In this document: one piece after another, positions 1-11,148 of the stretch
Layout of the letters: the number at the start of each line of letters is the position of its first letter
How positions within the stretch are numbered: the first letter of the stretch is position 1
Origin: Caulobacteraceae bacterium
Lineage (GTDB): Bacteria > Pseudomonadota > Alphaproteobacteria > Caulobacterales > Caulobacteraceae
Length of the DNA stretch: 44,637 bases
NCBI GenBank assembly: GCA_031291685.1
Contig: JARLIP010000151.1
Coordinates: forward strand, 1-44,637
Reading direction: 5' to 3'
The notes under the pieces: model-generated
Database searches by the model: none
The model's input: only the letters and a program-made list of their open reading frames with translations
What the model was told of the DNA's origin: nothing
Translations under genes and position numbers: made by a program

Positions 1-296
1 AGCAGCATCTTCAGCTGGCCATAGGTACAGTTCTGGGCCTCGTCGATGACCACGAAGGCATTGTTGAGGGTGCGCCCGCGCATATAGCCCACGGGGGCGA
101 TCTCGATGGCGCCCTCGGCCAGCAGGGCCTTGGCGCAAAAGAAGTCGAGTATGTAGGGTCCGAACGGGTGTTGCCGGCGGAAGGCGGGCTGGCCTGAGCC
201 CCTGACCCGCAATCTGGTCCACAGGGCCAGCTCCGGTGGCGTAAGCGCGCGGCGCAAGGCCTTGGCCTGATCGTGGGTGCGGGAGGCTGAACGCAT
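1..296 (-). CDS. Partial chimeric reading frame: N-terminal DUF559-like (VSR/REase-like) segment joined in frame to a PhoH-family C-terminal segment; continues past the window edge
   Basis: Manual translation from the ATG at 296-294: [57 protein letters not shown] (DUF559-like) then [41 protein letters not shown] (PhoH Walker B region). No stop codon to position 1. Not in the ORF track because it runs off the edge. Confidence 0.75.
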
Positions 297-359
297 GGGG
301 CAAGGCTAGGGGAGGCGACCGCTGACGTCATCCTTTTCCGGTCTGGGCGGCGGATCCTT

Positions 360-506
360 TCCTCCCCTGCATAGCGCAGCGACGCGGGGGAGGTGTCGCG
401 GGGCGAAGCTCCGTGTCGGAGGGGGCGAACCGACCGTCCGAGCGCCCCCTCAGTCGGGGTTTCACCCCGACAGCTCCCCCGTGTGGCTTCGCCAAACAGG
501 GGAGCA
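360..506 (+). repeat. Dispersed multi-hairpin intergenic repeat, copy A
   Basis: cctcccctgcatagcgcagcgacgcgggggaggtgtcgcggggcg...cgacagctcccccgtgtggcttcgccaaacaggggagc; shared with copies at 7821, 30231, 30351 and 44382. Confidence 0.85.
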
Positions 507-541: not shown

Positions 542-1873
542 TCACCGCTGGAAATCGTAGATCGGGCCGACGTCCAGCAGGGTGGTGAGGGTGTCCAGGG
601 CCTCCAGGGCGGTGCGGTGCAGGATCGGGTCGGCCAGGCCCTCCAGGGCCAGGGTTTCCGGGTAATAGGCCTCGACCCAGGCCTCCAGGGCGGTGAGCCT
701 GGCCTCGTCCATCAGGAAGCGCGGATCGATGGCGGCGGCCTCATCCTGGGTCACGGCCACCCGCAGGCGCAGGCAGGCCGGCCCGCCGCCATTGCGCATG
801 CTCTCGCGCACCTCCACCACATGGGTCTCGGCGATGGGCCCGCCGCTGGCCAGGAGGCGGTCCAGATAGGCCCTGGTCGAGGCCGTCTCCTGGGTTTCCG
901 CCGGCAGGATCAGGGCCATCTCCCCAGCCCGGCCGGGCAGGGAGACCAGCTGGCTGTTGAACAGATAGGAGCCCACCGCGTCGGCCAGGGAAACCTCGCT
1001 CGCCGGCGCCTCAACGACCATCAAGCCCGGAAAGGCCGCGCGCAGGGCGGCATAGGCGCCGTCGCGATCCTCGAACGCCTGCTCGTGGGCGAACAGCACA
1101 TGTTCGTTGGTCACCGAGACCACGTCGTTGTGAAAGGCGCCGGCCTCGATGGCGGCGTTGGACTGTTGCAGGAACACCGTGCGCTCCGGGCTCAGCCGGT
1201 GCAGGCGGGCCACGGCCTCGCTGGCCCGGCGCCGCTGGCGGGCGGGGAAGCTGCCGCTGGGGTTCTCCCCATAGACGAACAGCTCAATCCCCGGCGCCCC
1301 GTGCTGGGCGCCCAGCCGGCCATGGTTGGCCGCGCCCTCGTCGCCCATGTGCACGCCGCCAGGCAGGGGCTCGTGCACCGCGAAATGGGCCGGATCGGAG
1401 AAGATGGTCGCAAGCTGGCGGGCGGTGAAATCCCCTTCCAGGGACCGGTGCAGGTTGCTGGCCAGGTTGGCGGCGGTGAAATGGACCCGGCCGTCGGCGG
1501 TGTCGGCGCTGGGAGAGACGGTGGCGGCGTTGGCCGCCCACATGGACGAGGCGGCGCTGACATTGGTCAAAAGCGCAGGATCGGCGGCGTAGGCCTCAGC
1601 GATCATGGCCTCGGGCGATCCACGAAAGCCCCAGGCGTGCAGGGTGGCCAGGTGCGGCCGCTCGTGCGGCAGGAAGATCCCCTGGGGCACGCCGAGGGAC
1701 AGCAACAGCCGCATCTTCCTCAGGCCTTGCAGGGCCGCGGCCTTGGGCCGGGCGGGGGCGCCGGCGTTGCGGGCCGAGGCCAGGTTGCCCAGGCTCAGGC
1801 CCGCATAGTTGTGGGTGGGACCGATCAGGCCGTCGAAATTGATCTCCATCGCGGTATTGGCGGCGGCGCTCAT
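542..1873 (-). CDS. astB: N-succinylarginine dihydrolase AstB
   Basis: MEINFDGLIGPTHNYAGLSLGNLASARN...FHNDVVSVTNEHVLF...MRNGGGPACLRLRV is a typical AstB sequence; start trimmed from the 837-aa ORF; next to astD and astA. Confidence 0.93.
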   Translation of the reverse strand: MSAAANTAMEINFDGLIGPTHNYAGLSLGNLASARNAGAPARPKAAALQGLRKMRLLLSLGVPQGIFLPHERPHLATLHAWGFRGSPEAMIAEAYAADPALLTNVSAASSMWAANAATVSPSADTADGRVHFTAANLASNLHRSLEGDFTARQLATIFSDPAHFAVHEPLPGGVHMGDEGAANHGRLGAQHGAPGIELFVYGENPSGSFPARQRRRASEAVARLHRLSPERTVFLQQSNAAIEAGAFHNDVVSVTNEHVLFAHEQAFEDRDGAYAALRAAFPGLMVVEAPASEVSLADAVGSYLFNSQLVSLPGRAGEMALILPAETQETASTRAYLDRLLASGGPIAETHVVEVRESMRNGGGPACLRLRVAVTQDEAAAIDPRFLMDEARLTALEAWVEAYYPETLALEGLADPILHRTALEALDTLTTLLDVGPIYDFQR

Positions 1874-9118: not shown

Positions 9119-9805
9119 ATGCGCATTCTTCTGGTCGAGGACCACGAGGCCCTGAGGAGCATGACCGCCGCCTATCTGGCGGAGCGCGGCTTCGTGGTCG
9201 ATGATGTGGGCTCGGTGGAGGCGGCCAGGGCCGCCCTGGACATCGGGGTCTATGACGCCATGATTCTGGATCTGGGCCTGCCGGACGGGGATGGCCGCAG
9301 CCTCCTGACGGCGCGGGTCCGGGGTGGCGCACCCCCGCCGCCGGCCCTGATCCTGACCGCCCGGGACGCCCTCAGCGACCGCATCGAGGGGCTCAACGCC
9401 GGCGCCGACGACTATCTGGTCAAGCCTTTCGACCTGGACGAGCTTCAGGCGCGCCTGCGGGCCGTGCTGCGCCGGCCAGGGACGCGCGGCGAGGTGGCCC
9501 TGGGCCTGGGGCGCCTGACCTTCGACACCATTTCCCGGGAGGCCAAGGTGGAGGGCCGCGCCGTCAACCTGCGCCGCCGCGAGACCCTGGTGCTGGAGAC
9601 CCTGCTGGCGGCCCGGGGCCGCATCGTGGTGCGCGACGTCCTGGAAGAGCGCCTTTACGGCTATGACCAGATGGTCACCCCCAACGCCCTGGAGGCGGCG
9701 GTCTCGCGCCTGCGCAAGGCCCTGGATGAGGCGGGGGCCGGCGTGCGCATCGAGGTGCGGCGGGGCATCGGCTATGTGCTGCGGGCCGAGGATGAGCCCT
9801 CATGA
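9119..9805 (+). CDS. OmpR/PhoB-family response regulator
   Basis: MRILLVEDHEALRSM...MILDLGLPDGDG...LVKPFDLDEL plus winged-helix GIGYVLRAE. Confidence 0.93.
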   Translation: MRILLVEDHEALRSMTAAYLAERGFVVDDVGSVEAARAALDIGVYDAMILDLGLPDGDGRSLLTARVRGGAPPPPALILTARDALSDRIEGLNAGADDYLVKPFDLDELQARLRAVLRRPGTRGEVALGLGRLTFDTISREAKVEGRAVNLRRRETLVLETLLAARGRIVVRDVLEERLYGYDQMVTPNALEAAVSRLRKALDEAGAGVRIEVRRGIGYVLRAEDEPS

Positions 9806-11148
9806 GGTGGCCGGCGAGCAGCCTGCGGCTTCGGCTCCTGGCGGCCCTGCTGTTCGTCTGGGTGATGGGCGCCGCGGTCATGACCGTGCAGTTCCTGCGC
9901 CACGAGCGCGAGCCGGACGAGGTGCTGGAGGACGCCAGCCTGTCCACCCAGGCCCGGGCCCTCATCGGCGCCCTGCGTTTCGACAGCCGGGGCGCCTTTG
10001 TGAGCGTCAGGGTGCGCAATCCCTGGCGCAGGGCCTATCGCAAGCCCAACGCCGCCTACTACACCATCTATGATCCCCAGGGCCGCCCCGTGGCCCGCTC
10101 GCCCAACCTGACCCAGCCCCTGGCGCCGATCCCCCTCGCGGCGGGGGAGGCGATCACCGCCCAGCGCTTGGTCGGACCGGATCAGGATCTGGCGGCGGCG
10201 GCGCGGGCGCCCGGCGGCTATGTGGCGGTGGTGGCCAGGGCCAATCCCGGTCGGGCCGACCAGACCCCCCGGCAGAAACTGGTGGACCTGATCCCCGGCA
10301 TGATCTTCGGGCTATCCGCGCTCCTGGGGTTGGTGGTGGTGTGGCTGGTGGCGGCCTGGAGCCTGCGTCCCCTGGCCCGGGCGGCGCGGGAGGCGGCCTT
10401 GATCGGCCCCGAGCATCCCGACGCCCGCCTGAGCACCGACGAATTGCCCGGCGAGGTGCGTCCCCTGGCCGAGGCGGTGAACCGCGCCCTGGACCGGGTC
10501 TCCGAGGCCTACGCCAACGAAAAGCGCTTCACCGCCGAGGCCGCCCACGCCCTGCGCACCCCGCTCACGGTTCTGGATCTGCGCCTGCAACGGGCCGAGC
10601 AGGGCGGCCAGACCGATTGGCCCTCGGTGCGGGCCGACGTGGCCGAGCTGACCCGGGTGGTTTCAAGCCTGCTGACCCTGTCCAAGGCCGAGCGTGAGCG
10701 GGTGTTCCGCGCCCCCGCCCAGGTGAACCTGACGCGCCTCGCCCGGGAGGCGGCGGCGGCCTTCGCCCCGCGCCTGGAGGCCGATGGCCGGACCATCGAG
10801 ATCACCGCCCCCGATGAGCCCATTCTCCTGCATGGCGAGGCCGGCGAACTGCGGGAGATGGTGTTCGCCCTGATCGACAACGCCCTGACCCACGGCCGGG
10901 GCCGGGTGCTGCTGACCCTGAGCCAGGGGTCGGATGTGGCGGTGCTGGAGGTTTCGGACGATGGCCCGGGCGTGGCCGAGGCCGAGCGCGAGCAGGTGTT
11001 CGAGCGCTTCCACAAGCTGGACGGCGCCTCCCCCGGCGCGGGCCTCGGCCTGGCCATCGTGCGCCAGACCGCGCGCAATCACGGCGGCGACGCCCGTTTC
11101 ATCGCCGCCTCAAGCCTGGAGATCCGGCTGGCCAGGACGGCGCCCTAG
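9802..11148 (+). CDS. Sensor histidine kinase
   Basis: HAMP/HisKA (EKRFTAEAAHALRTPLTVL) and HATPase (DNALTHG, DDGPGV, GLGLAIV); 4-bp overlap with the response regulator. Confidence 0.93.
   Translation: MRWPASSLRLRLLAALLFVWVMGAAVMTVQFLRHEREPDEVLEDASLSTQARALIGALRFDSRGAFVSVRVRNPWRRAYRKPNAAYYTIYDPQGRPVARSPNLTQPLAPIPLAAGEAITAQRLVGPDQDLAAAARAPGGYVAVVARANPGRADQTPRQKLVDLIPGMIFGLSALLGLVVVWLVAAWSLRPLARAAREAALIGPEHPDARLSTDELPGEVRPLAEAVNRALDRVSEAYANEKRFTAEAAHALRTPLTVLDLRLQRAEQGGQTDWPSVRADVAELTRVVSSLLTLSKAERERVFRAPAQVNLTRLAREAAAAFAPRLEADGRTIEITAPDEPILLHGEAGELREMVFALIDNALTHGRGRVLLTLSQGSDVAVLEVSDDGPGVAEAEREQVFERFHKLDGASPGAGLGLAIVRQTARNHGGDARFIAASSLEIRLARTAP

Follow-up and report, generated by a model that had tools for sequence, protein, structure and literature searches.

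The DUF559/PhoH frame and its surroundings

The stretch of DNA analysed here (hereafter the window; 44,637 nucleotides from a Caulobacteraceae bacterium) is contig C31 of draft bin G000, which consists of 361 contigs and is 80.9% complete, and base 1 of the window is the physical end of that contig. According to the ORF list, a minus-strand frame (296-3) begins here with an ATG at 296, runs for 98 codons and is still open at its 3' end where the window stops. Two Pfam families meet within it, PF04480 (DUF559) on residues 7-59 (44.3 bits, profile positions 3-55 of 109) and PF02562 (PhoH) on residues 55-98 (57.6 bits, profile positions 96-139 of 205), both above their curated cut-offs; two such strong family matches in one frame are not due to chance. 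The first-pass annotation, which had described a single open frame with a DUF559 opening followed by a PhoH core, is thus borne out by the ORF list and by both Pfam matches.

The N-terminal part of the DUF559 gene takes up codons 1-57 (126..296, minus strand) and retains the characteristic RRQHPxGPYxxDF segment. The switch to PhoH comes before the VEVDG catalytic segment, which, as the first-pass annotation had remarked of the acidic motif, occurs nowhere in the frame; the corresponding E57, D59 and G60 of the E-x-D-G segment are invariant in an alignment of 19 DUF559 homologues (alignment A1). The remainder of the frame is an internal phoH fragment (3..131, minus strand) that is equivalent to residues 148-191 of the 255-residue congener protein and runs off the contig end. 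It shares with the 255-aa alphaproteobacterial PhoH a 44-residue core segment (91% identity to the congener protein) that includes the conserved region around MRGRT..DEAQN, and differs from it in lacking both the C-terminus and the P-loop (Walker A) upstream of DEAQN. The latter absence had also been noted at first pass, and intact phoH relatives carry GPAGTGKT at this place.

The point of transition, originally placed near 115-135, could be narrowed down to the six bases AAGGCC at 126..131 (minus strand) by aligning phoH and DUF559 codons from relatives. The DUF559 relatives read GCC-AAG-GCC and several of the phoH relatives read GTC-AAG-GCC-CTG, so that AAGGCC is compatible with either gene.

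Upstream of the frame, 60 bp from the DUF559 start, lies a dispersed palindromic repeat of ~150 bp (356..506, unstranded) made up of two inverted units (~362-427 and ~443-504) whose halves align as inverted repeats, and which is found at ~40 or more places in its own genome with 82-95% identity. It is followed by an intact astB gene encoding N-succinylarginine dihydrolase (542..1870, minus strand; from the ORF list), with 77% DNA identity to G004:C1:538417-539721 in a congener. Among the matches listed, the closest complete homologues of the window DUF559 are two genes in congener G002, 67% identical, each lying between inverted copies, ~73 bp long, of the unit type seen in the window repeat. 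A trace of the same gene also exists elsewhere in the bin: at 4290-4600 of contig C296 (L055) its first ~48 nt, nearly identical, stand between two repeat units, flanked by a regulator gene and an autotransporter-like gene. Judged by sequence, this relic is a second, gutted copy of the window DUF559 element. We take the DUF559 half of the frame to be the opening part of a nuclease gene bracketed by repeats.

Origin of the junction

Three readings of the frame had been offered at first pass, namely a recombinant protein with a novel N-terminus, a pseudogene and an assembly join. Our data favour the last of these, widened to include a join made in the library. When the frame was compared with 100 relatives, ordinary DUF559 genes were hit by query residues 1-60 and intact phoH genes by residues 54/55-98, with no listed match extending over both halves. 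Nor did the same junction, whose occurrence in other genomes the first-pass annotation had considered, turn up in a wider search, a degenerate junction pattern being without match in 84,980 GTDB r220 genomes. As base 1 of the window is the contig end, the PhoH part is merely the last ~130 nt before that end, and we consider the frame most probably to be a false join, of assembly or library origin, at the end of a contig. Combined with the view that the DUF559 half opens a nuclease gene bracketed by repeats, this forms our main reading, to which we assign a probability of about 0.72. A piece of ~130 nt from the phoH gene of this species would have been attached at the short shared AAGGCC, by an assembly step or through a chimeric library fragment; contig C31 should properly run on over the C-terminal part of DUF559 as far as the following repeat unit, and no fusion protein would be produced from the frame.

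One reason to favour the false join is that a real and unique join would not make the contig stop within ~130 nt. Contig-end overlaps were examined on a sample of 80 bin contigs, and two pairs of contig tips were found to have exactly 141 bp in common, the signature of MEGAHIT at k=141; the PhoH tail is shorter than this k and also shorter than a 150-nt read (read length assumed). A plain k-mer collision is an unlikely origin of the join. The usual smallest k of an assembler is 21, and codon comparison of DUF559 and phoH relatives makes a stretch of more than ~16 identical bases at the junction implausible, so that one has to invoke a chimeric read or a step of local assembly. At the other end of the contig (window 44565-44637) there is also a dispersed repeat, common to several other contig tips, and such repeats therefore appear to set many of the contig ends in this bin.

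A real rearrangement, in which illegitimate recombination at AAGGCC fused the DUF559 gene to phoH and left a truncated, dead gene with both halves deprived of their catalytic parts, is improbable in our estimate. The join is in frame and has microhomology, and broken DUF559 genes do exist: one in a complete Caulobacter genome lies in two frames (G072:C1:2948411-2948724), and another (G077:C29:73454-73603) is cut at the same profile position as the window copy. The bin is also without an intact copy of this phoH. A search of it recovered neither the rest of the window phoH (only two other PhoH-type paralogues, on C83 and C245) nor the true continuation of either gene. We count the missing remainder of phoH in favour of the false join, but with little weight, as the bin is only 81% complete. 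What tells against a rearrangement and for a false join, beyond the abrupt contig stop, is the arrangement in relatives. An intact phoH of this type is present in nearly all of the 100 relatives; in congener G001 the genes that come after it are DUF3126 and cysE. The bin has these downstream genes on a different contig, C292, which starts in a dispersed repeat just beyond the expected phoH end. In the two-contig congener G004, astB (at 538 kb) and phoH (at 1,928 kb) share a contig and lie 1.39 Mb apart, and astB adjoins a gamma-glutamyltransferase-like gene with no DUF559 there. Separate, complete phoH and DUF559 genes in related genomes, which the first-pass annotation had named as evidence against a chimeric gene, are thus found in general; none of the relatives was seen to have a DUF559 gene at exactly this astB-adjacent place.

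A functional fusion protein, with a novel DUF559-like N-terminal part in front of a PhoH domain, is extremely improbable, since the frame, open as it is across the junction, has no P-loop and no DUF559 catalytic motif, and its architecture is without homologue among the matches listed in the 100 relatives or in GTDB r220. A conserved fusion was rejected on the latter two counts. Also rejected was the idea that an intact DUF559 element had inserted itself in phoH: the PhoH side of the junction has no repeat unit, and phoH lies elsewhere in relatives. The chimera itself is of importance only as a caution against taking a frame for a fusion gene when it runs through the final 130 nt of a draft contig.

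As a separate observation, positions 1-130 of C292 (L052), just before the DUF3126 gene, belong to a different repeat family (ccccgccaaggcggggacc...), which stands in place of the expected phoH end.

Nuclease fold and inverted repeats around DUF559 genes

An AlphaFold2 model of a complete DUF559 homologue (pLDDT 88.9) matches NGO0050 (3hrl; E 1.3e-6), the catalytic domain of the homing endonuclease I-Bth0305I (3r3p; E 3.5e-4, TM 0.72) and, more weakly, Vsr (1vsr; E 0.04), and a sequence profile also finds 3hrl and I-Bth0305I (E 4e-5 for the latter). On the strength of this model, complete DUF559 homologues share the Vsr/EDxHD nuclease fold and are homing-endonuclease-like. For one DUF559 protein of Caulobacter crescentus, VsrA, a role as mismatch-repair nuclease has been proposed (PMC12907096). 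The window copy has in common with these DUF559/Vsr-like endonucleases the N-terminal signature half, and its complete homologues fold like 3hrl, but it is without the VEVDG half; repeat bracketing is not mentioned for VsrA in the passages of that paper found by term. The resemblance to the EDxHD enzyme I-Bth0305I is one of fold, whereas the latter belongs to a mobile intron and the DUF559 genes lie between palindromic repeats.

Bracketing is not confined to G002. In the complete Caulobacter genome G072 a multi-copy repeat flanks 8 of the 9 DUF559 genes versus 32 of 222 other genes, and repeats stand on both sides of 5/9 DUF559 genes versus 1/222 others; when read, the DUF559 flanks are near-perfect inverted pairs. 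We extended the comparison across Alphaproteobacteria, to 80 GTDB loci fetched by alignment of a closer DUF559 subset, a procedure biased to one subclade, and took inverted flanks with SW>=50 as the criterion for bracketing. Of the 73 loci with enough flank, 48 passed this cut-off (one subclade being favoured in this sample); so did none of 480 random windows, 1 of 327 other genes, and none of 88 genes that have intergenic gaps on both sides. Because of the bias the test was repeated on DUF559 genes picked by HMM only from nine genomes, where 31 of 46 have inverted flanks and 34 of 46 inverted or direct ones, 12 are without any flanking repeat pair, and the bracket is missing in about a third.

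The units that bracket DUF559 genes are double hairpins of 50-75 bp, which are also dispersed through the genome without any gene. Most of the bracketing arms start with TCCTCCCC, and CGTC is found near the outer end in only 4 of 52. Clusters occur as well: L333 (G077:C29:71500-75600) has three DUF559 genes within ~1.1 kb, the middle one of which is truncated at profile position 59, like the window copy.

Pairing of repeat types with nuclease subclades

Several unit types can coexist in one genome, where each goes with a DUF559 subclade of its own, and the same unit-subclade pairings recur in other genera. For example, the unit CCCTTCTCCC... is found at L177 of G072 and at L203 of Brevundimonas lenta, and the unit CCCTCCCCCTCGA... 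at L184 of G072 and at C199 of the window's own genome. Over 817 cross-genus pairs, protein similarity and flank-repeat similarity correlate at 0.424. In a permutation null in which flanks were shuffled among the DUF559 genes within each genome (3000 permutations), the correlation was 0.07 (sd 0.074) with a maximum of 0.333, and 0/3000 permutations reached the observed value.

Comparison of orthologous sites shows that one such element does not stay in place. The DUF559 element at L182 of G072 (9300-9860; ~557 bp with both inverted ends) is absent from the orthologous site in G113 and G025, where both flanks are conserved and the slot is occupied by gene-less repeat dimers that differ between the two genomes. 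A similar whole element lies at another place in G113, with no resemblance outside the repeat ends. The DUF559 element thus changes position between species, whatever the mechanism. In three genomes of the Caulobacter group, one and the same intergenic slot (L182 versus L308, L310 and L309) is occupied by a different repeat element in each, and one of the three carries DUF559.

Taken together these features suggest a REPtron-like element, and a new kind of repeat-spreading element. A REPtron consists of a RAYT transposase gene with GTAG REP sequences on its flanks (PMC3733652). What the DUF559 loci have in common with REPtrons is a gene placed between inverted dispersed palindromes, the presence of gene-less dimers elsewhere, and several cognate sets of repeat and enzyme per genome, with the enzyme subclade paired to the repeat type. 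They differ in that the DUF559 enzyme has a Vsr fold (PF04480) rather than being an HUH tyrosine transposase, and in that the units are 50-75 bp double hairpins lacking the GTAG tag. As the defining HUH transposase is absent, we regard the REPtron as the closest analogue of the DUF559 element, which is not itself a member of that class.

Although speculative, we find it an even bet that alphaproteobacterial DUF559 nucleases are dedicated mobilisers of dispersed double-hairpin repeats, each subclade cutting and spreading its own unit type by homing- or transposition-like copying, in what would be a REPtron-like system with a Vsr-fold nuclease in place of the HUH transposase. The nuclease would recognise and then nick or cut its own unit type, and repair of the break would then place a fresh copy of the unit, or of the entire element, at a new site. 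RAYT transposases are believed to act in a similar way on REP sequences, the DUF559 enzyme being unrelated to them. We did not find a published link between DUF559 and dispersed repeats in the open-access literature, as covered by titles and abstract openings for DUF559 papers and by term for the VsrA paper.

A competing explanation, which we hold to be unlikely but by no means negligible, is that DUF559 is a mere passenger, the double-hairpin repeats being spread by another enzyme or acting as terminators and the nuclease gene having been captured between them. Most repeat copies are indeed gene-less, the dozen DUF559 genes without a flanking repeat pair would fit this explanation, and the mismatch-repair role proposed for the related Caulobacter VsrA points in the same direction. 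On the other hand, a passive passenger is not expected to have a unit type that follows the DUF559 subclade both within and across genera, nor would one expect several unit types in a single genome, each with its own subclade; the modelled fold, moreover, is that of a homing endonuclease.

Should the nucleases prove to be mobilisers, this would provide a role for a protein family whose name is still that of a domain of unknown function. Alphaproteobacterial genomes contain many palindromic intergenic repeats, and a DUF559 nuclease with subclade-matched repeats is a direct candidate, open to testing, for the agent that spreads a part of them at least. A survey of REP sequences in 2013 found CGTC REPs to be predominant in Alphaproteobacteria, apparently without a dedicated transposase (PMC3733652). 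These resemble the DUF559-linked units in being head-to-head palindromic dimers between genes in Alphaproteobacteria, but are defined by a CGTC tag, an 8-9 bp stem and a CCA tail, a definition that the DUF559-linked units, with their TCCTCCCC... start in most cases, do not fit. As these units are mostly not CGTC-tagged, we do not claim to have found the transposase of the CGTC REPs. A CGTC-like dimer occupies, in G113, the same intergenic slot in which G072 has its L182 element.

Finally, the pairing of DUF559 with repeats may extend beyond Alphaproteobacteria, as indicated by a locus labelled as Planctomycetes whose flanks score SW 56, above the cut-off; it is one of three loci so labelled (L286, L276 and L282), and the other two score 38 and 41.
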